A stretch of DNA of 64,000 bases from assembly GCF_900142135.1 (NCBI RefSeq), contig NZ_FQZU01000006.1:1-64000 (forward strand), read 5' to 3'. This DNA is from Desulfatibacillum alkenivorans DSM 16219 (lineage in GTDB: Bacteria; Desulfobacterota; Desulfobacteria; Desulfobacterales; Desulfatibacillaceae). Within the stretch, counting starts at the first letter, position 1. Every line of letters begins with the position of its first letter. Of this stretch, positions 40,302 to 50,847 are shown piece by piece. The notes under the pieces are model-generated. The model was not told the origin of the DNA. It was given only the letters and a program-made list of their open reading frames with translations, and did not search any database. The translations under genes and the position numbers were made by a program.

Positions 40302-42938
40302 CTAGTATCTTGAGGGCGCGAAAAACTCCCTGACCTTCCGCCATACGGAGGAGGACTCGGACCCGGCCGTCTGCACAAAGCAGAGGTCGTCGTCGCTTTT
40401 GAAAATGGCCGCGGCTTCGTCCACGGTCCTCACATTCCTGAGGTATGTGAGCTTGCCGGTCGAATCGCCCGCCACGGCGTCCATGTCATTGTCGTTGTCC
40501 AGGTCGGCCATGACCACGGCGCCGGGGAAGGTTTTCTTCGAGGCGATGGCGAAGGGATTGGCGCTTCCCGCCTGTTCTTCAAAAGCCGGGGAGGTTCTGG
40601 TTCCCACGTTCTTGAAGTAACGGGCGTCCTGCCAGATCACATCGTGGGCGTCGGGCAGTTCTTCGCCTTTTCTCGGCCCCTCGTCGCCGGCAAAGTACAT
40701 CAGTTTTCTGTACCAGGGCAGGCGGTCCCCCATGACGGCGTCCTGGTCCCCGTCGCCGTCAAAATCGGCGAACGACAAGGTGGGGACAAAGGAGCCCACA
40801 ACCCCGCTAATCACCTCAGTTTGCGTGATAAGTTCAGAACCGGATATGGGCGAAATGGTGTACTGAATCATGGATGCCATGGGGTCGAAGAACACCGTGT
40901 CGGTGATCAGGTGCAAGGTCGGCGTGACGGTTGTGCCGTCGTTGCGATAAAAATATACGCCGCCCTGGTTTTCGCCGACCATGCCGGAGACGAAAACGTC
41001 CAGGTCGCCGTCGCCATCGATATCCACAAAGGCCGGGCTGGGATAGATGGGCAGGATGCCCAGTTCACCCAAGGGGTTTTGGTCCAGCGCCTTGAATTTC
41101 CGGGTTTCCGGCTCATATTCAAAGGCATCGATATTTCCGCCGCCAATTAACATGGACTTTCTTTTATAGACCCCCGTCGGCTCTATAACGACGCTGTATT
41201 GGGAGTATCCTGCATAAACCTCATTGATTCCATCTCCGTTCATGTCCGCAATGCCCGGAGACGGCAGAAAGTAATTGCCGGGCCAGGAGATGGGCTCGTC
41301 ATCCAGGCTGTGCAGGGCGAAAAGGGGATCGGCTTCGCCGCCGATGTTTTCATAATAGTTCAGTAGAGATCTGCCGCTGCTCGCCTTGGATTGGGCTTTC
41401 TGTCCCCCATCGTAAAAGTTGTAACTCAGGCCGCCTACCACGGCGTCCATGTCGCCGTCTCCGTCCACGTCCCCTAAGGCGGGGATGGACGTGGCCGCTA
41501 CGGGGCCCAAGTTGAAGGGGTTGTCGCCCCGGGAGCGGTAGTCCGGCTCAGTTTTCGTTCCCGTGTTCTGGTAATACCGGATGGAGTTGTTGGAGAGCAT
41601 TGCCTCCAGGGAGTCCGTACTCCCGAAATACGGAACCATGGGGTTGGCCATAATGTATTCGCTGTAAAAGGAATTATATCCGTTTGTCCCTGTAAACAGG
41701 TCGTCCAGTCCGTCGCCGTTGATGTCCGCGAAAACCGGCGCCGAAGCTACTCCCGGGTCGACTCTGAATGGATTTTCGTCCTGGGTGCGCTCCTCGAACG
41801 AATATCCGTACTTGTCGCCGGTATTCTCAAAGAAGACCAACGGCCCGTAGGCGCTTCCCAGGAGCAGGTCCATGTCGCCGTCGCCGTCCACGTCGGAGAA
41901 AGCAGGCGCCGCGTTATAACCGGCGTAAATCGTGTTGGATTCGGAGTCCTGCAAATAGCCCTGGCAGGCAAATTCGATGGTTGCGGTTACCGGGCCTTTT
42001 TGGCGCTCCACTTCGCCGGTTATGTTTTCAAAAAAGGCTACATATCCATAATATCCGCCGACCATGCAGTCCATGTCGCCGTCGCCGTCAATATCCACAA
42101 AGGTTGGGACGGCGTCCCACAGGTCGCCCACAACAAGGGGGTTGTAATTCATGGCTTTGGTGGTTCCGGAAACCACTATGTTGCTTATGTCGAAAACAGG
42201 GGCTTGGGGCGTGCCCTTGTTCTCGAAAAAGCTGATGGAGGACATGTAGTCCGAACTCTTATTTTGCCAGGTCTGGTGGTAGCCTCCCTCCCACGTCCCC
42301 ACAAAGCAATCCATGTCGCAGTCGCCGTCAATATCCACGAAGGAGGGCGCGGTATACCGGAAAAATTCCTCCGTGCCGTACAATGGGTTGCTTTTCGGTT
42401 TGACGAATACGAAGTTCGGCTGGGTTTTGCCGCCCTGATTTTCCCAGAAGTTGATGCTGCCCTGCCGGTTGCCCACAAAGCAGTCCAGGTCGCCGTCTTT
42501 ATCTATGTCCACAAAGGCCGGTTTTGAATACTCTTCCATGGCGCCGGCCAGGGGGTTGGTTCCGCCGTAGTAATTCAAGCCAAGCCCGTCCGCCAGGGCG
42601 TCGCCCACGCCCCCGCCCAAAACCAGAGCGCCGGAAAAAGCCGCCGCTATGGCGCCCCGGGCGATCAGCCTTTTGGCGGAAGAGCCTGAGCCTGAGGGGG
42701 TAAACACGCCCGCCGCCGCCAGTTCCTTGCATGCGGAACGGCTGAGGCCGCCTTTTCGGGTGATGGGTTGAGCGGTTGTGAACTGGTGGACCTTGCTTTC
42801 CAAACCGGAACCGGTATTGGTAAAGGCCAGTGCGCAGCCAAATTTCCTGCTGGCGAATAGCGCCGTGGAGCCGACCTCCTCCAGCGCTTTTGCTACATTT
42901 TTCGAATCAATTGCCTGGATTCTTCTTCCTTGTTTCAT
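40302..42938 (-). CDS. Large FG-GAP/VCBS-repeat protein with N-terminal leader (paralogue 1)
   Basis: Start at 42938 (MKQGRRIQ) has AAAGGAGTG upstream; a 16-residue extension is rejected. The 878-residue product has a conserved N-terminal module (residues 1-87) with Cys34 and Cys70, then a Sec-type signal segment (AKRLIARGAIAAAFSGALVL, about 88-107, cleavage likely near ALA at 116). Ten Asp-rich repeats of the form D-x-D-x-DGDxD-x-FVG follow, the calcium-binding blades of an integrin-like propeller. The C-terminus ends SSSVWRKVREFFAPSRY. It is probably exported and surface-associated. Paralogue 2 is upstream. Binding partner unknown. Confidence 0.85.
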   Translation of the reverse strand: MKQGRRIQAIDSKNVAKALEEVGSTALFASRKFGCALAFTNTGSGLESKVHQFTTAQPITRKGGLSRSACKELAAAGVFTPSGSGSSAKRLIARGAIAAAFSGALVLGGGVGDALADGLGLNYYGGTNPLAGAMEEYSKPAFVDIDKDGDLDCFVGNRQGSINFWENQGGKTQPNFVFVKPKSNPLYGTEEFFRYTAPSFVDIDGDCDMDCFVGTWEGGYHQTWQNKSSDYMSSISFFENKGTPQAPVFDISNIVVSGTTKAMNYNPLVVGDLWDAVPTFVDIDGDGDMDCMVGGYYGYVAFFENITGEVERQKGPVTATIEFACQGYLQDSESNTIYAGYNAAPAFSDVDGDGDMDLLLGSAYGPLVFFENTGDKYGYSFEERTQDENPFRVDPGVASAPVFADINGDGLDDLFTGTNGYNSFYSEYIMANPMVPYFGSTDSLEAMLSNNSIRYYQNTGTKTEPDYRSRGDNPFNLGPVAATSIPALGDVDGDGDMDAVVGGLSYNFYDGGQKAQSKASSGRSLLNYYENIGGEADPLFALHSLDDEPISWPGNYFLPSPGIADMNGDGINEVYAGYSQYSVVIEPTGVYKRKSMLIGGGNIDAFEYEPETRKFKALDQNPLGELGILPIYPSPAFVDIDGDGDLDVFVSGMVGENQGGVYFYRNDGTTVTPTLHLITDTVFFDPMASMIQYTISPISGSELITQTEVISGVVGSFVPTLSFADFDGDGDQDAVMGDRLPWYRKLMYFAGDEGPRKGEELPDAHDVIWQDARYFKNVGTRTSPAFEEQAGSANPFAIASKKTFPGAVVMADLDNDNDMDAVAGDSTGKLTYLRNVRTVDEAAAIFKSDDDLCFVQTAGSESSSVWRKVREFFAPSRY

Positions 42939-43307
42939 CAAAAACACTCCTTTTTGGATTTCCTGCTCCCCCCGAAAAAAAAGCATAGTCTCTCGGCGTC
43001 AAACTTTTTGTACAGATAGGGCTTTATAGAATAGATTTTTAAAAAAGTTACAGGAAAAATACGTAAAAATTAAAATTATTTTTGAAAAACATCGTATAAC
43101 GATGGTTATATGTGGTTTAAAAGCGGTTTTTTGATATGGATATCCCAGTGAGAATCAGGCGGATGAGCGGCAAAAAAATAATCTAAAAGCCAAAGGAGAA
43201 GATCGGCGGAGACGGCCCCTTGGAAGAAGGATGAACTTCCCCCTCAAAAAAACTCAGGGGCGCCCGAAAACAGGCGCCCCTGAGCATTACAAAAAAATCA
43301 GGATCGT
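42939..43307. other. Intergenic region between the VCBS paralogues
   Basis: This 370-bp gap is AT-rich around 43020-43140 and should carry the promoter of the leftward paralogue 1. The terminator of paralogue 2 occupies 43246-43284. No other gene is seen. Confidence 0.5.
43246..43284 (-). terminator. Terminator of the second VCBS gene
   Basis: A 12-bp perfect stem CTCAGGGGCGCC / GGCGCCCCTGAG (43253-43264 and 43273-43284) is followed on the minus strand by seven T. It lies 24 nt after the stop. Confidence 0.92.
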
Positions 43308-45857
43308 TTAGTATTTGGAAGGCGCGAAAAACTCCTTGACCTTCCGCCACACCGAGGAGGACTCGGAACCGGCCGTCTGCACAAAGCAGAGGTCGTCGTC
43401 GTCTTTTAATATGGCCAGAGCCTCGTCCACGGTTTCCACATTCCGGTAATAGTAGAACTTGCCGTAAATCTCTCCGAATACTGCGTCCGGGTCGCCGTCA
43501 CTGTCCAGGTCTGCAATGGTCGTGGCGCCGGGGAAGGTCTTGTCCAAAAAGCCCGAGAAGGGGTTGGCGTTTCCGGTTTGCTCCTCAAACATGGCTTCCG
43601 TAGCGGTTCCCGTGTTCTTGAAATAGCGGGTTCCCAAATCAAATTCCAGGGTCCCGGTGACCACGTCTTGTTTTGCTCCCCTGAGGTAAAACATCCAGGA
43701 CCAGATGGAGAACCTGTCGCTCAACACGGCATCGCTGTCCCCGTCGCCGTCCCAATCGGAGAAGGACAAATACGGTATAAAAACGCCCGGGATGCCGCTT
43801 AACGGATTGGTTTCCGTGACCAGGGAGAAGGTGGGCGTGACGGCCGTTCCCACATTGCGGTAAAACATGATGTCCGCGTTGTAATAATCCCAGCCGTCTT
43901 CCGGCGAAATGCCGGAGATAAAAGCGTCCAGGTCGCCGTCGCCGTCAATGTCCGTAAAAGCGGCCTGGGGATAAATAGGAATGCCTTCCAATTCACCCAG
44001 GGGGTTCTCGCACAGCCAGTCGAAGGCCATTGTGTCGGTCACGTAGCTGAAGGCCTCAATCTCCGCCGTGGGCGTGATTGTTCTCTTTAAAATATTGTCA
44101 TAATAAGTGTCATAGCTGACGCCAACGTAGACTTCATCTATGCCGTCTCCGTTCAGGTCTGCCGTGGTGGGAGTAGGCATGTACCAATCTTCGTTCCACA
44201 CCATGCTCCAGGGATTGTTGTACATGGAGTGCTGGGCGAACAGGGGGTTGGTCGCGCTGCCCCTGTTTTCAAAATACTTCATGTCTTTGGGAGCGAAATA
44301 ATCCGGATCGTATTTGACTTCGGCCCTTTTGTTGTAAAGGTTGAAGCTGGCGCCCACAATGGCGTCCAGGTCGCCGTCGCCGTCCATGTCCCCAAAAGTC
44401 ACGCTGGGCATGAGGGCAGCCGGTCCCAGGTTAAAGGGGTTGTCGCCGCGGGACCGCAGATCCGGCGCGGTTGTGGAGCCCACGTTCTGGTAATAACGCA
44501 GAAAAATGTTGGAGTAGAAATCCGACAAGGCGGGAAGGTCATCCTCCTCTTCATCCTTGCGGTCGTCCACATAATATTCAAACGGAGAGGCGCCCACAAA
44601 CAAGTCATAGGTCCCATTGCCGTTAATGTCCGCAAAGGCCGGCGCCGAATACATGCCGGGCGCCATTCTCGTCACGCTCTGGCACATCTCACGCCATTCC
44701 AGAACCATGTTCTGGGCGTCGCCCGTGTTTTCAAAGTACTGGATCGATCCGTACATATTGCCCACAAAAAGATCCAGGTCGCCGTCGCCGTCAATATCCG
44801 CAAAGAAGGGGGCTGCGACGCCGCCGTAGGCCCAGATGTAAAAACTTTCCGGATCCTTGCTTATGGAAAAGGCTTCCAGGGGGCCGCGGGATATGAACTC
44901 AATGGCGTCGCTGAGCCAGGTTTTGGTCTGGCTGTTGTCAACGGTCATGTTTTCATAATACCAGACGTATCCTTCTTCCCCGCCGATGAAAGCGTCCATG
45001 TCGCCGTCGCCGTCAATATCGGCGAAGGTGGGGGAGGCTTCTTCATCCTGGGTGAAGACGAGCGGGTTGAAGCCCACGGTCTTGCGGGTTTCGGTGATAT
45101 TGCCCGTTTCAAAGACCGGGTTGGTCTTGCTTCCCGTGTTTTCAAAAAAGCTGACGTAAGAGGTGCTGCCGCCGTTCTTTACGCCAAAAGACTGCGATAA
45201 AGCGTATTTGTGGCCCACAAAACAGTCCATGTCGCCGTCGCCGTCAATGTCCACAAAGGCGGGAGAAGCCAGATAGGTCAGACCCTCCGTGCCGGTCAGG
45301 GGGTTGGCGTCCCCCTCGATCAGGCTGAAATTGGGGTTTTGGGAGGTTCCGTTATTCTTCCAGAATTCAATGTAGCCGTAGCCTCCGCCCACAAAGCAGT
45401 CCAGGTCGCCGTCGCCGTCAATGTCCACAAAGGCCGGCTTGGCGTCGTAAACCATCGTTTCGGCCAGGGGGTTGGTCCCGCCGTAGTACTTTAAGCCCAG
45501 ATCATTCGCCGCCATGGCGTTGTTCAGGCCGCCGCTCATGAGCATGGCGCCGGAAAAGGCTGCGGCAAGCGCCCCCCTGGCGATCAGCCTTTTGGCGGAA
45601 GACTCGGATCCCACAGGATTCAAAAGCCCTGCGGCGGTCAGTTCCTTGCACGCACAACGGCTAAGAGCGTTCTTGCCAGTGATTGGGTGAGAGGTTGTAA
45701 ACCTATGGGTTTTTCTTTCCACGCCCTGGCCGGTGTTGGTGAAAGCCAGCGCGCACCCCAGGTTTTTGTTGGCGAATAGCACTGTAGCGCCTTTTTGGGC
45801 CAGCGCCTCCGCCACCTTTTGCGGGTTTGTTTTGTTAACCTTTTGTCCCGTCTGCAT
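43308..45857 (-). CDS. Large FG-GAP/VCBS-repeat protein with N-terminal leader (paralogue 2)
   Basis: Start at 45857 (MQTGQKVNK) is preceded by TAGGAG; a long upstream extension is rejected. The 849-residue protein aligns without gaps to paralogue 1 over residues 1-115, including GCALAFTNTG, Cys34, Cys70 (LSRCACKEL), and SSAKRLIARGA at the start of the signal segment. Ten D-x-D-x-DGDxD repeats follow, with two weakened ones (near DINGNGTYD and DLNGDGIDE). The final 30 residues are almost identical to paralogue 1. The leader and C-terminal conservation exceed that of the repeats, suggesting they are the functional parts for export or anchoring (inference). Confidence 0.85.
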   Translation of the reverse strand: MQTGQKVNKTNPQKVAEALAQKGATVLFANKNLGCALAFTNTGQGVERKTHRFTTSHPITGKNALSRCACKELTAAGLLNPVGSESSAKRLIARGALAAAFSGAMLMSGGLNNAMAANDLGLKYYGGTNPLAETMVYDAKPAFVDIDGDGDLDCFVGGGYGYIEFWKNNGTSQNPNFSLIEGDANPLTGTEGLTYLASPAFVDIDGDGDMDCFVGHKYALSQSFGVKNGGSTSYVSFFENTGSKTNPVFETGNITETRKTVGFNPLVFTQDEEASPTFADIDGDGDMDAFIGGEEGYVWYYENMTVDNSQTKTWLSDAIEFISRGPLEAFSISKDPESFYIWAYGGVAAPFFADIDGDGDLDLFVGNMYGSIQYFENTGDAQNMVLEWREMCQSVTRMAPGMYSAPAFADINGNGTYDLFVGASPFEYYVDDRKDEEEDDLPALSDFYSNIFLRYYQNVGSTTAPDLRSRGDNPFNLGPAALMPSVTFGDMDGDGDLDAIVGASFNLYNKRAEVKYDPDYFAPKDMKYFENRGSATNPLFAQHSMYNNPWSMVWNEDWYMPTPTTADLNGDGIDEVYVGVSYDTYYDNILKRTITPTAEIEAFSYVTDTMAFDWLCENPLGELEGIPIYPQAAFTDIDGDGDLDAFISGISPEDGWDYYNADIMFYRNVGTAVTPTFSLVTETNPLSGIPGVFIPYLSFSDWDGDGDSDAVLSDRFSIWSWMFYLRGAKQDVVTGTLEFDLGTRYFKNTGTATEAMFEEQTGNANPFSGFLDKTFPGATTIADLDSDGDPDAVFGEIYGKFYYYRNVETVDEALAILKDDDDLCFVQTAGSESSSVWRKVKEFFAPSKY

Positions 45858-46333: not shown

Positions 46334-48346
46334 TTAAGCAAGCATCTTGTGCACCATCCGGGCTTCCGTGACGTCTTCAATATAGGGCCGGAGGTGCTTT
46401 TCGAAAAGTTTCAGCACGGCTTCGTTGCGTACGTCCATCATAAACAGGGCGTTGGGAATATTCGCCGCCATCCTGCGCCTGGCCGCTTCAATCATCAACG
46501 GCATGGCCACGTTTTTGCCTCTCAATTCCTGGCTCAGGTACAGGGCGCTGTACTGCAGCGTATCAGGGGCCACCCGGTGGGCGATGCTCCAGCCTGCGAT
46601 TTTTCCCTGATAGCGAAGGCCGATGCTGATTTTCGGCTCGATGATCTGCTCCTCCAGAAAAGGAGATAACTCCCTCGGAAATTCGGGATCCTTCATGATG
46701 CGATCCTGGATGTCGCGCCGGTCGTCATCCGTCAAGTCGCCCCAGTCAAACAACTCGCATATATGAGTGGGAAACGGCATGTTCAACCATTCCGCCCCTG
46801 CAATGGACTTGGTGGTGCTTTTTCCTATCACCCTGAGCGGCTTGGAGGGCGCCCATCCTTGCTTTTTAGCCAGCAGTTCCAGGGCCGTGGCGCCGTCCCA
46901 GTTTGTCCGGTAAGTTAAATCCATGGCTTTCAGGCCAAGATTCCTAAGCACGGCCTCCATCTCCGAAACCAACTTGCCTGCTATGCCCTGATTTCTGTAT
47001 GGCGCCGCCACGGCCAGGGATATGATTTCCGCGGAAAAATTGTCCGGCCGCATTTCCGCAATGCAGGCGCCCACAAGCCCCTGGTCATTGGAAGCCGTGA
47101 CAATGTTCACCTTGCCCGCCGGCGGCAGGCTTCTCCATCTGGCGGACAGCCTGGGAAAGGAAAAAGGCTCGAACTTCTGCGCCTCGGCCGGGTTAAGGCC
47201 TGTTTGGGATTCAAACTTGTAATTGGAGGTCTTGTCCTCCACTGGCACGCGCCAGGTGTGGGGAACGTTCTTTTCTTTGCCCAAATCCCCCGAGTCGATG
47301 GTGATGATGTGCCAGATCTCCTTGTTTTTCAGGCCCAGGGCCATGGGTCTGCGCACCTTGGGCAGAATCTGGACGTCGTAAAGCTCGGTGACAACGCCTT
47401 CTATCCGCGCCCAATGGGCCACCTCTCCGGTGTTGATGTTGATGACCATGAAGCCGCACCACGGCTCCGCGTCCCGGCTTTCCAGCTCATGATCCAGGTC
47501 CAGGCCGGTGAACGCCTTGTTCCGGGGCTTGGAAAGGCCTACAACCGCATAGTTTCCGCAAAAAGCCAGGCCGCGCATATATCCCGGGCAAAATGCCATG
47601 GGTTCGAACTCGCCGTTTTCCAGGTTGATGGCGCCGAAATAGCCCTTGCCCGAATTGCAAAGCCATAGTTTGTCCCGGTAATACCGGGGCGAGTGCGGCA
47701 TGGACAAGCCCTGGGCCACGATCTCGTCGGTCTGGATGTCCACCACCACGCCGCCGTCGTTCCGGCGGTCCCGCCAGCCGGAAACCACGTCGGACCGGCT
47801 CACCGCGGTTACGTATTTGGCTTCTCCCTTAACCAAAGCCAGGCCGTTCAAGTGGCACCGGTCCTCGTGGGCCAGTTGCGAAATGAACGGAGGCCGCCAA
47901 TAGGGCTTGAAGCTGTATCGGTCGCTGACCGTGGACAGGCAGCTGTACAGGGTGTTTACAAAAATGACGTCCCCGTTTTTGTCCACCACGACGTCGTGGA
48001 TGTCCAGGTCGCCCGTGGTATAGGCCTTGCGCGGCACGTAAAGCCGGTCGTATTCATTGTACAACTCGCCGGGCGCCAGGGCGTTTTCAAAACGCCATAA
48101 CTGATACCGGCTGCTCATGATCAAACTGTCCGGCGTAGCCCACAGACCCATGGCATGGTCGAACAAACGCTCAAAAGCCGACAGGGCGCCGTTTTCCTTC
48201 AGCCCCAGAAAGAACAGGCGGCTGCTCTGGTAGGTCGTAAAAGCCAGGCTGATTTGTTCCTGATTCAGCCAGGACAGAAAACCCTGGGAGCAAGTGATTT
48301 CAACGGGAGGTTTGTTCTGGCTCTGCTGGGGCGCGACGGGATCCAT
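46334..48346 (-). CDS. TIGR03032/DUF4915 protein fused to GNAT acetyltransferase domain(s)
   Basis: This 670-residue protein matches TIGR03032 over about residues 20-340 (MGLWATPDSLIMSSRYQLWRF, YVPRKAYTTGDLDIHDV, HEDRCHLNGLAL, WLCNSGKGYF), a beta-propeller-like family of unknown function. A GNAT fold follows: LAVAAPYRNQGIAGKLV (acetyl-CoA P-loop, about 440-456). A second, degenerate GNAT-like domain may fill about 540-670 (YLSQELRGKNVAMPLMIEAARR). TIGR03032 is usually a separate protein, so the fusion is notable. Start at 48346 follows CGAGGTAC. It is encoded divergent to nothing and upstream of the VCBS pair. Substrate unknown. Confidence 0.78.
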   Translation of the reverse strand: MDPVAPQQSQNKPPVEITCSQGFLSWLNQEQISLAFTTYQSSRLFFLGLKENGALSAFERLFDHAMGLWATPDSLIMSSRYQLWRFENALAPGELYNEYDRLYVPRKAYTTGDLDIHDVVVDKNGDVIFVNTLYSCLSTVSDRYSFKPYWRPPFISQLAHEDRCHLNGLALVKGEAKYVTAVSRSDVVSGWRDRRNDGGVVVDIQTDEIVAQGLSMPHSPRYYRDKLWLCNSGKGYFGAINLENGEFEPMAFCPGYMRGLAFCGNYAVVGLSKPRNKAFTGLDLDHELESRDAEPWCGFMVININTGEVAHWARIEGVVTELYDVQILPKVRRPMALGLKNKEIWHIITIDSGDLGKEKNVPHTWRVPVEDKTSNYKFESQTGLNPAEAQKFEPFSFPRLSARWRSLPPAGKVNIVTASNDQGLVGACIAEMRPDNFSAEIISLAVAAPYRNQGIAGKLVSEMEAVLRNLGLKAMDLTYRTNWDGATALELLAKKQGWAPSKPLRVIGKSTTKSIAGAEWLNMPFPTHICELFDWGDLTDDDRRDIQDRIMKDPEFPRELSPFLEEQIIEPKISIGLRYQGKIAGWSIAHRVAPDTLQYSALYLSQELRGKNVAMPLMIEAARRRMAANIPNALFMMDVRNEAVLKLFEKHLRPYIEDVTEARMVHKMLA

Positions 48347-49077: not shown

Positions 49078-50847
49078 CTAAAGGGCTTCCACCTTTTTGG
49101 CCTTGGCGATGACTTCCTCCGCCATTTTCTCCTTGAACGCCGCCAGCCGTTTGGCCACGGTTTCGTCCGCAACGCCGATAATCTGAGCGGCCAGAACGCC
49201 GGCGTTCTTGGCGCCCATTTTACCCACAGCCACCGTGGCTACGGGAATTCCCGGAGGCATCTGCACCGTGGCGAGCAAAGCGTCGAAGCCGGCCAGAGGC
49301 GTGGCGTCAATGGGTACGCCGATGATGGGCAGGGTGGTCTGGGCGGCCAATGCCCCGGCCAGGTGCGCGGCGGCGCCGGCGCCGGCGATGATCACCTTGA
49401 TGCCCCTGTCCCGGGCCGTGCGGGCGATTTCCGCGGCCCGTTCCGGCGTGCGGTGGGCGGAAGCCACGGTCATTTCGTACGGAATGCGCAGCTTGGTCAA
49501 CATTTCCGTAGCGCCTTGCATCACCTTCAGGTCGGAGTCGCTGCCCATGAGGATGGAGACCAAAGGCGCGGGCTTGACGTGCCTGCTGGCTTTTTGTCCG
49601 ATGTCCTTACGCTTGTACACGCCGGTCCACTTGATTTTATCCGCGGCCTTGTAGGCTTTGGCAATGGCTTTGTCGATGGTCTCCCCCAAGGCGGTCACGC
49701 CAAGCACCCGGCCGCCGGAAGCGACGATCTTCTCGTCCTGCAAGGCCGTGCCCGCATGGAACACAAACACGTCCTTCATGCGTTTGACCGCGTCCAGGCC
49801 GGAAATGGGCATGCCCTTGTCGTAAGATCCGGGGTATCCCTTGCTGGCCAGGACAATGCACACCGCAGCCTGGGGATCGATTTCCAGGTTGACCTTGTCC
49901 AGTTCTTCCCTGCTCACCGCTTCCATGATTTCCACAAGGTCGGTTTTCAGGCGCATCAAAAGGGGTTGGCATTCGGGATCGCCGAAGCGGGCGTTGAACT
50001 CCAGCACCTTGATGTCGTCGCCGTCGATCATAAGTCCGGCGTACAACACGCCCTTATAAGGAGCGCCCTCGGCGGCCATGGCCTTGACCGTGGGCTTCAT
50101 GACTTCGTTCATGATCTTGTCGTGCATGTAGGCGTCCACAACCGGAGCGGGGGAGTAAGCCCCCATGCCGCCGGTGTTGGGGCCTTTGTCTCCGTCGAAG
50201 ATGGCCTTGTGATCCTGGGAAGAGGGCAGCGGCAGCACGGTCTTGCCGTCGGTGAAAGCCAGGAACGAAGCTTCCTCGCCCGCCAAAAGCTCTTCGATGA
50301 GCATTTTCTTGCCCGCGTCGCCGAAGGCCTTTTCCTCCATGACCAGGTTGACGGCCTCCAAGGCCTGCTTTTTGTTGGTGCAGACCATGACTCCCTTGCC
50401 TGCAGCCAGGCCGTCGGCCTTCACCACCACCTTGCCGCCTACTTCTTCAATGTAGGCTTTGGCTTTTTCGATGTCGGTGAAGGTTTTTCCCACAGCCGTG
50501 GGAATACCGTATTTGGTCATGAGGGATTTGGCGAAGGACTTGCTGCCTTCCAGACGGGCGGCCGCCTTGCTGGCGCCGAACACCATGAGCCCGGCTTTTT
50601 CGAACTTATCCACAATGCCTTCGGTGAGGGGCGCCTCGGGACCCACCACGGTCAGGCCGATGGCGTTTTCCTTGGCAAAGGCCAGGAGATTGGGAATGTC
50701 TTCTGCGCTGATGGGCACGCATTCGGCCGATTCCGCGATGCCGGCGTTGCCCGGCGCGCAATAAATCTTTTCGACCTTGGGGCTTTGGGAGAGTTTCCAA
50801 ACCAAAGCATGCTCCCTGCCTCCCGAACCTATAACCAATACTTTCAT
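49078..50847 (-). CDS. purDE: Fused phosphoribosylamine-glycine ligase and N5-CAIR mutase (PurD-PurE)
   Basis: The 589-residue protein joins two purine enzymes. Residues about 1-425 form PurD: KVLVIGSGGREHALVWKL, an ATP-grasp core, and FNARFGDPECQPLL (Mg-binding). Residues about 430-589 form PurE: ILMGSDSDLKVM (about 431-442), VASAHRTPE and GAGAAAHLAGALAA. PurD makes GAR from phosphoribosylamine and glycine; class I PurE moves CO2 to give CAIR. ATG at 50847 has AGGAGG upstream. PurD and PurE act at steps 2 and 6b of the pathway, not consecutive, so fusion is not simple channelling. I saw no frameshift between them. Confidence 0.93.
   Translation of the reverse strand: MKVLVIGSGGREHALVWKLSQSPKVEKIYCAPGNAGIAESAECVPISAEDIPNLLAFAKENAIGLTVVGPEAPLTEGIVDKFEKAGLMVFGASKAAARLEGSKSFAKSLMTKYGIPTAVGKTFTDIEKAKAYIEEVGGKVVVKADGLAAGKGVMVCTNKKQALEAVNLVMEEKAFGDAGKKMLIEELLAGEEASFLAFTDGKTVLPLPSSQDHKAIFDGDKGPNTGGMGAYSPAPVVDAYMHDKIMNEVMKPTVKAMAAEGAPYKGVLYAGLMIDGDDIKVLEFNARFGDPECQPLLMRLKTDLVEIMEAVSREELDKVNLEIDPQAAVCIVLASKGYPGSYDKGMPISGLDAVKRMKDVFVFHAGTALQDEKIVASGGRVLGVTALGETIDKAIAKAYKAADKIKWTGVYKRKDIGQKASRHVKPAPLVSILMGSDSDLKVMQGATEMLTKLRIPYEMTVASAHRTPERAAEIARTARDRGIKVIIAGAGAAAHLAGALAAQTTLPIIGVPIDATPLAGFDALLATVQMPPGIPVATVAVGKMGAKNAGVLAAQIIGVADETVAKRLAAFKEKMAEEVIAKAKKVEAL

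Follow-up and report, generated by a model that had tools for sequence, protein, structure and literature searches.

Two neighbouring genes of Desulfatibacillum alkenivorans DSM 16219 (Desulfobacterales), here called A and B, encode FG-GAP proteins in which a conserved module of 87 residues stands ahead of the hydrophobic signal segment. Why should a secretion signal begin so late, and do this leader and the C-terminal tail together define one dedicated route of export, processing or anchoring? We addressed these questions in a window of 64,000 nucleotides, which is the whole stretch of DNA analysed and part of contig 33 of the 6.47 Mb host genome (G000). In our preferred reading, to which we give a probability of about 50%, the leader and the segment behind it together make up a signal peptide in two parts, about 116 residues long, on tandemly duplicated, secreted FG-GAP propellers with a CFI-box-like tail. 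This looks like an unusual local form of a bacterial secretion signal and not like a new secretion system.

Genes A and B and the segment behind the leader

Both genes lie on the minus strand (Table 1), and in each a leader was seen, with a hydrophobic stretch behind it that begins past about residue 90, in line with an earlier note made from the sequence; its term "giant" is overstated for proteins of 849–878 residues. Pfam FG-GAP_3 (PF13517, formerly named VCBS) matched A with 142.5 bits in 8 stretches and B with 136.2 bits in 7 stretches, far above the cut-off of 26.9, and each protein carries ten DxDxDG-type motifs, in agreement with the VCBS/FG-GAP identity and the ten repeats first described. 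The repeats reach up to the 40-residue tail. Outside the leader the full-length model is beta-rich, with Foldseek matches to CRTAC1, DDB1 and integrin alpha chains. The open frame of B extends upstream as far as 46100; position 45857 was chosen as its start because it is aligned with the start of A and a Shine-Dalgarno sequence is present.

Table 1. Features of the A/B locus in the window. A slash marks the putative cleavage site.
Feature	Position	Strand	Evidence
Gene A, 878-aa FG-GAP protein with leader	40302..42938	-	ORF; AGGAG 8 nt 5' of ATG; FG-GAP_3 E 6.1e-42
Leader module of A (residues 1-87)	42678..42938	-	Alignments; dN/dS ~0.16 for A vs B
Signal segment of A (residues 88-116), KRLIARGA...DALA/DG	42591..42677	-	AxA position kept in 7/7; hydropathy; cleavage putative
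FG-GAP repeat region of A, ten DxDxDG-type motifs	40425..42533	-	Pfam and motif count
C-terminal tail of A (residues 839-878), LCFVQTA then VWRKVREFF	40305..40424	-	NF041763 14.9 bits, cut-off 15.9
Gene B, 849-aa paralogue of A	43308..45857	-	ORF; AGGAG 8 nt 5' of ATG; FG-GAP_3 E 5.6e-40
Leader module of B (residues 1-87)	45597..45857	-	AlphaFold2 model of residues 1-90
Signal segment of B (residues 88-116), KRLIARGA...NNAMA/AND	45510..45596	-	AxA in 7/7; hydropathy; low-confidence helix 87-107; cleavage putative
FG-GAP repeat region of B, ten DxDxDG-type motifs	43431..45449	-	Pfam; beta-rich model, Foldseek best match CRTAC1
C-terminal tail of B (residues 810-849)	43311..43430	-	NF041763 15.1 bits, cut-off 15.9
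Upstream neighbour, DUF4915/TIGR03032 fused to GNAT domain	46334..48346	-	Domain search; adjoins array in both genomes; neighbourhood only

The segment behind the leader was compared among seven copies, namely A, B and the five copies c1–c5 of Desulfatibacillum sp. MAG7 (G001). In all seven, RL[IV]ARGA is invariant just before the hydrophobic stretch and an AxA closes this stretch at the same place. The core is Gly/Ala-rich and starts after about residue 90, and thus the segment is not an ordinary short signal peptide. Its best 13-residue Kyte-Doolittle mean is 1.6–2.0, compared to 1.8–3.2 in ten further proteins of the genome that are presumably exported, which places it below nine of these ten signals. 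The full-length model of B has a helix at residues 87–107 with low confidence. Judged by inspection, the features of a Sec signal (RL[IV]ARGA, Gly/Ala core and AxA) are present in 7/7 copies, with weak hydropathy, and would be consistent with an N-in Sec signal that is cut by signal peptidase I.

Alternatively, the segment could be an uncleaved signal anchor which holds the propeller on the membrane, the leader being a permanent cytosolic domain that perhaps signals on propeller binding. Such a single-pass sensor or anchor would match the order of a domain that is predicted to fold and a lone helix behind it. However, all seven copies keep the AxA, and the hydrophobic stretch is short with many Gly and Ala residues, and we consider an anchor somewhat unlikely. 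A Tat-type signal of a KR variant with a long n-region, exporting the protein already folded, is a weaker rival to Sec and in our view unlikely. Tat signals combine a basic motif with a weakly hydrophobic, Gly/Ala-rich segment, and both KRL[IV]AR with the segment that follows it and the hydropathy below nine of ten comparison signals are Tat-like, but a twin arginine is found in none of the seven copies (KR in six, AR in c1) and cytosolic folding of a calcium-dependent propeller would not be expected.

The leader as a predicted domain and its distribution

Residues 1–87 of A and B align without a gap and are identical at 48 of 87 positions (17 at most when one copy was shuffled 2,000 times), and GCALAFTNTG is present, as the earlier note had claimed. 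Its other details hold in part: Cys70 is common to A and B, but the other shared cysteine is residue 35 and not 34, and the SR of the LSRxACKEL motif varies among the seven copies. Cys35 is kept in 7/7 copies. A Cys35–Cys70 disulfide was rejected, as Cys70 is kept in only four of them, with W, H or R in the others.

An AlphaFold2 prediction for residues 1–90 of B based on the seven sequences yielded the elements H12-21, E26-30, E35-41, E46-52 and H67-75, and the leader is thus apparently a compact alpha-beta-beta-beta-alpha domain. The mean pLDDT per 10-residue block was 81–91 for residues 11–80, with a pTM of 0.60 and a range of 67.4–78.3 in mean pLDDT among the five models. In the full-length model the leader had the same order of elements at lower confidence (blocks of 28–62 pLDDT). 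Foldseek against the PDB gave no leader match at E <= 0.001 (best E 0.41), and the best Z of 4.4 (2x5h) in a VIA-align comparison of the leader model is too low to conclude from; a likeness to SH2 domains, with rows at Z ~3, was treated as a common arrangement. The order of the elements, together with the sequences of HicA proteins, had prompted a HicA/dsRBD reading, which was rejected at the profile level only: hhalign gave a probability of 0.7% against a profile of 16 HicA homologue rows, compared to 99.8% in a control of one HicA half against the other. Overall, the predicted domain appears to be without a convincing known fold.

In the host genome, A and B are the only convincing matches to the leader. 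A search of nine genomes of the family added the five copies in G001, all in tandem, and the profile search proposed in the earlier note therefore found seven genes and not just two. Among 291 genomes of the class, four had a match at E <= 0.01, that is G000, G001 and two judged to be chance. A seven-row profile including the signal matched three of 395 phylum genomes, the third in the signal segment only, and the same profile without the signal matched two of 395. With c1, the most divergent leader, as lone query, matches were found in two of 389 class genomes, and a pattern scan of a genome contig collection confirmed one locus, the MAG7 array. These genome samples overlap, some runs scored the best 10–14 candidates per genome, and remote members may be missed. 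The propeller of B was detected at E <= 1e-30 in two of the 194 genomes searched in the order, which are once more G000 and G001; since the propeller is equally restricted, the leader is as narrow in distribution as the whole protein family, not narrower. In the genomes searched, the leader is restricted to one tandem gene family of the genus Desulfatibacillum.

No family for the leader was found in Pfam or NCBIfam (weakest match Pfam DUF5429, E 0.11), and a PHROGs search gave nothing below E 0.1. Sequence searches of solved structures gave no match at E <= 0.001 with the full profile and two chance matches with E above 1 for the leader. None of 27 pattern stretches in viral contigs was confirmed, and plasmids had no match at E <= 1. 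Several candidates were judged to be chance: L011 and L012 (E 0.07 and 0.89, one stop inside each), L014 (E 0.014, one stop), L020 (E 7.9e-4, three stops), L021 (E 0.009, opposite a long ORF) and L023 (E 0.005, signal segment only).

The locus is syntenic between G000 and G001: one flank carries a purD-purE fusion, Sua5 and the DUF4915-GNAT gene, and the other flank carries the MDMPI-type and TetR genes, where the neighbours in G001 were assigned by eye. The fusion combines GARS domains and AIR carboxylase in one protein of 589 residues (window positions 49078–50847).

Probable partial concerted evolution of the array and selection on the leader

The C-termini of A and B are nearly identical over 30 residues (28/30), as had been noted. 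The broader claim that the ends are more conserved than the repeats stands within each genome, where identities of leader, propeller and tail are 55, 48 and 88% for A and B and 76, 61 and 84% among c2–c5. Between the genomes (A and B versus c2–c5), however, the leader is about as conserved as the propeller (54 and 52%, tail 64%; with gaps counted, leader 53, propeller 47 and tail 46%), and in comparison to c1, the most divergent copy, it is even lower (32 versus 43%, tail 41%).

In trees of leader plus signal and of the tail, A pairs with B (support 99/99 and 95/99), and in the propeller tree A pairs with c5 (93/91, not starred). An AU test rejected A+c5 for leader plus signal (p 0.003) and for the tail (p 0.002); on the propeller, A+B was not rejected (p 0.08). 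Synonymous agreement was higher at the ends than in the propeller in four of six G001 pairs (c2-c3, p 1e-5; c4-c5, 0.002; c3-c5, 0.009; c2-c5, 0.035; one-sided Fisher tests, uncorrected), and by the same test no excess was seen for c2-c4 (0.087) and c3-c4 (0.59). The combined ends of A and B showed no synonymous excess either (one-sided Fisher, p 0.25), with an agreement of 0.76 in the tail, 0.49 in the leader and 0.58 in the propeller, and there is no synonymous sign of concerted evolution in their leaders; nor was an excess at the ends observed in eight between-genome pairs (p 0.08 or more). These patterns fit a partial concerted evolution of the tandem array, which may explain much of the end similarity and is clearest in G001 and in the tail of A and B.

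In the G001 array (L019:6660-15450), an element like GAAGAGGGGGAATTCTC lies upstream of c2–c5, and hairpins with a GGGGGAnCC-type arm are located 3' of them. Copies c3–c5 show a mosaic of identity, with c3-c4 tracts near alignment columns 250–400 and 750–800 and c4-c5 identity from 575 on, which suggests intragenic recombination that diversifies the propellers.

The leader is most likely translated and under purifying selection as a protein, because dN is well below dS, a Shine-Dalgarno sequence precedes all seven copies and no in-frame start between leader and signal is common to them. For A versus B we obtained a dN of 0.31 and a dS of 1.9 (dN/dS ~0.16) and for c4 versus c5 a dN of 0.12 and a dS of 0.48; the ratio is 0.16–0.33 across seven printed pairs and 0.36 for the pair with the outlier c1. 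These values bear on the reading of the leader as a functionless relic, a coding segment picked up by the array's ancestor, tolerated, and kept alike by gene conversion. Sec accepts N-terminal extensions, the searches found the leader in one genus only, it is no more conserved between the genomes than the propeller, and the ends have been homogenised in several G001 pairs. A relic would, however, hardly retain a dN so far below dS, a nearly gap-free leader with invariant residues across seven copies and a fold predicted with confidence, and we regard this explanation as quite improbable. A mis-annotated start, with translation beginning past the leader, is hardly credible: in-frame GTG, TTG or ATG codons do lie between leader and signal, but they vary from copy to copy, the GTG and ATG common to c2–c5 (inside the signal segment) are missing from A, B and c1, none of these codons is shared by all seven, AGGAG or GGGAG precedes the leader start in 7/7 copies, and the leader evolves as a protein.

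Proposed export, the tail and known systems

The analysis showed that the leader evolves as a protein, is predicted to fold, is followed by a conserved AxA and is confined to one genus among the genomes covered, and that the genome encodes a type II secretin (GspD, 519 bits, cut-off 351). The scheme that follows, with its export route, cleavage step, destiny and task of the leader, bound calcium and role of the tail, is inferred. Residues 11–80, the first to be made on the ribosome, would form the small alpha-beta-beta-beta-alpha domain and remain cytosolic. Residues 88–116 would then act as a Sec-type signal of low hydrophobicity whose positive charges face the cytosol, and signal peptidase I would cut at the conserved AxA. 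Most likely, the leader would modulate targeting or the speed of export in the manner of the N-domain of long autotransporter signals, or it would be a small released cytosolic product. The mature propeller would fold outside, its DxDxDG loops probably holding calcium, and the LCFVxxA tail could serve as a CFI-box-like surface-sorting tag, perhaps through the type II secretion system. More tentatively, and with less probability than the two-part signal itself, the leader domain might be a genus-specific n-region that is cut off together with the signal at the inner membrane and persists as a stable cytosolic product of ~9–12 kDa, regulating or pacing the export of a diversifying tandem family of surface propellers. 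If so, a single polypeptide would give rise to a receptor that is secreted and, in the cytosol, to a reporter of its own export.

LCFVxxA is present near the C-terminus of 7/7 copies, so that the leader-bearing proteins do share the tail, as the earlier note had asked. Its proposal that the tail defines anchoring or processing finds some backing in the resemblance to the CFI-box, a 14-position putative sorting motif (NF041763), although the last 60 residues of A and B, with 14.9 and 15.1 bits, score below the cut-off of 15.9. The same applies to a six-frame search of the genome, in which the two tails reached 15.3 and 15.7 bits and ranked 9th and 8th of 18 matches at E <= 10, directly after seven proteins above the cut-off. 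The likeness is weak because DCFVG-type repeats in the propellers of A, B and their paralogues score nearly as high (11.7–14.8 bits). The five G001 tails were absent from 22 matches at E <= 10, and the tails of c1 and c5 scanned alone gave no match to NF041763. Given the composition, CF[IV]xx[ALV] would turn up somewhere in 30 positions with a probability of ~4e-4, for a pattern that was picked after the tail had been seen. The tail is therefore a plausible but weakly supported candidate for a sorting tag, and it is a better lead to anchoring than the leader.

Of the seven CFI-box proteins above the cut-off, L067, L081, L082, L084 and L085 clearly begin with an ordinary signal close to the N-terminus, L083 has ~40 residues before its signal if the first plausible Met is used, and L086 was left unassigned. 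None of the seven (0/7) shows the leader. Because these CFI-box proteins do without the leader, leader and tail as one dedicated route, which the earlier note had envisaged, are not supported; moreover, the leader was found on one tandem family in one genus and much of the similarity of the ends fits within-genome homogenisation. Three further low-scoring tails in the genome carry CFV and behind it a hydrophobic stretch that leads to a basic end. The seven CFI-box proteins and these three (L063-L069, L072-L074) perhaps carry two forms of one sorting tag.

Among open-licence PMC papers, none was found on the CFI-box motif or on Desulfatibacillum FG-GAP proteins. A and B come closest to four known groups. 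They have DxDxDG loops like the propellers of CRTAC1 and integrin alpha chains and like FG-GAP proteins in general (PF13517, PF01839). The best Foldseek match was CRTAC1 (9etn, E 1.8e-9), but TM-scores are low (0.20/0.28), and leader and tail lie outside the PF13517 and PF01839 models. As in CFI-box proteins (NF041763), CF[IV]xx[ALV] is found near the C-terminus after an acidic stretch; apart from scoring below the cut-off, A and B differ in running on for 25 residues after the Cys, whereas all seven CFI-box proteins end 6–8 residues past it. With the MYXO-CTERM/myxosortase tags, which are tripartite with a Cys motif, a transmembrane helix and a basic end (PMC11980579), A and B share an invariant Cys in the C-terminal tail, but by inspection they have no transmembrane helix or Arg cluster after this Cys; the three CFV tails of the host genome do resemble these tripartite tags as described there. 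The tail of A and B possibly points to an extended form of a C-terminal sorting motif.

The long bacterial signal peptides known are mainly those of autotransporters. Neither an ESPR nor a type V translocator beta-barrel was among the Pfam matches at E <= 1 (for the ESPR, in whole proteins or leaders), and A and B are therefore not members of this group. By layout, it nevertheless includes the nearest known case: the long signals of autotransporters and two-partner secretion proteins have an N-domain, the ESPR, of ~25 extra residues before a cleavable Sec signal, and its role is described there as still open (PMC2805444). The leader of A and B is longer, with 87 residues, and predicted to be folded, whereas no folded domain is described for the ESPR in the sections of that paper considered here. 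A seven-member family from a sulfate reducer with a predicted globular extension of 80 residues thus provides a clean case in which the role of an N-domain before a Sec-type signal can be tested.
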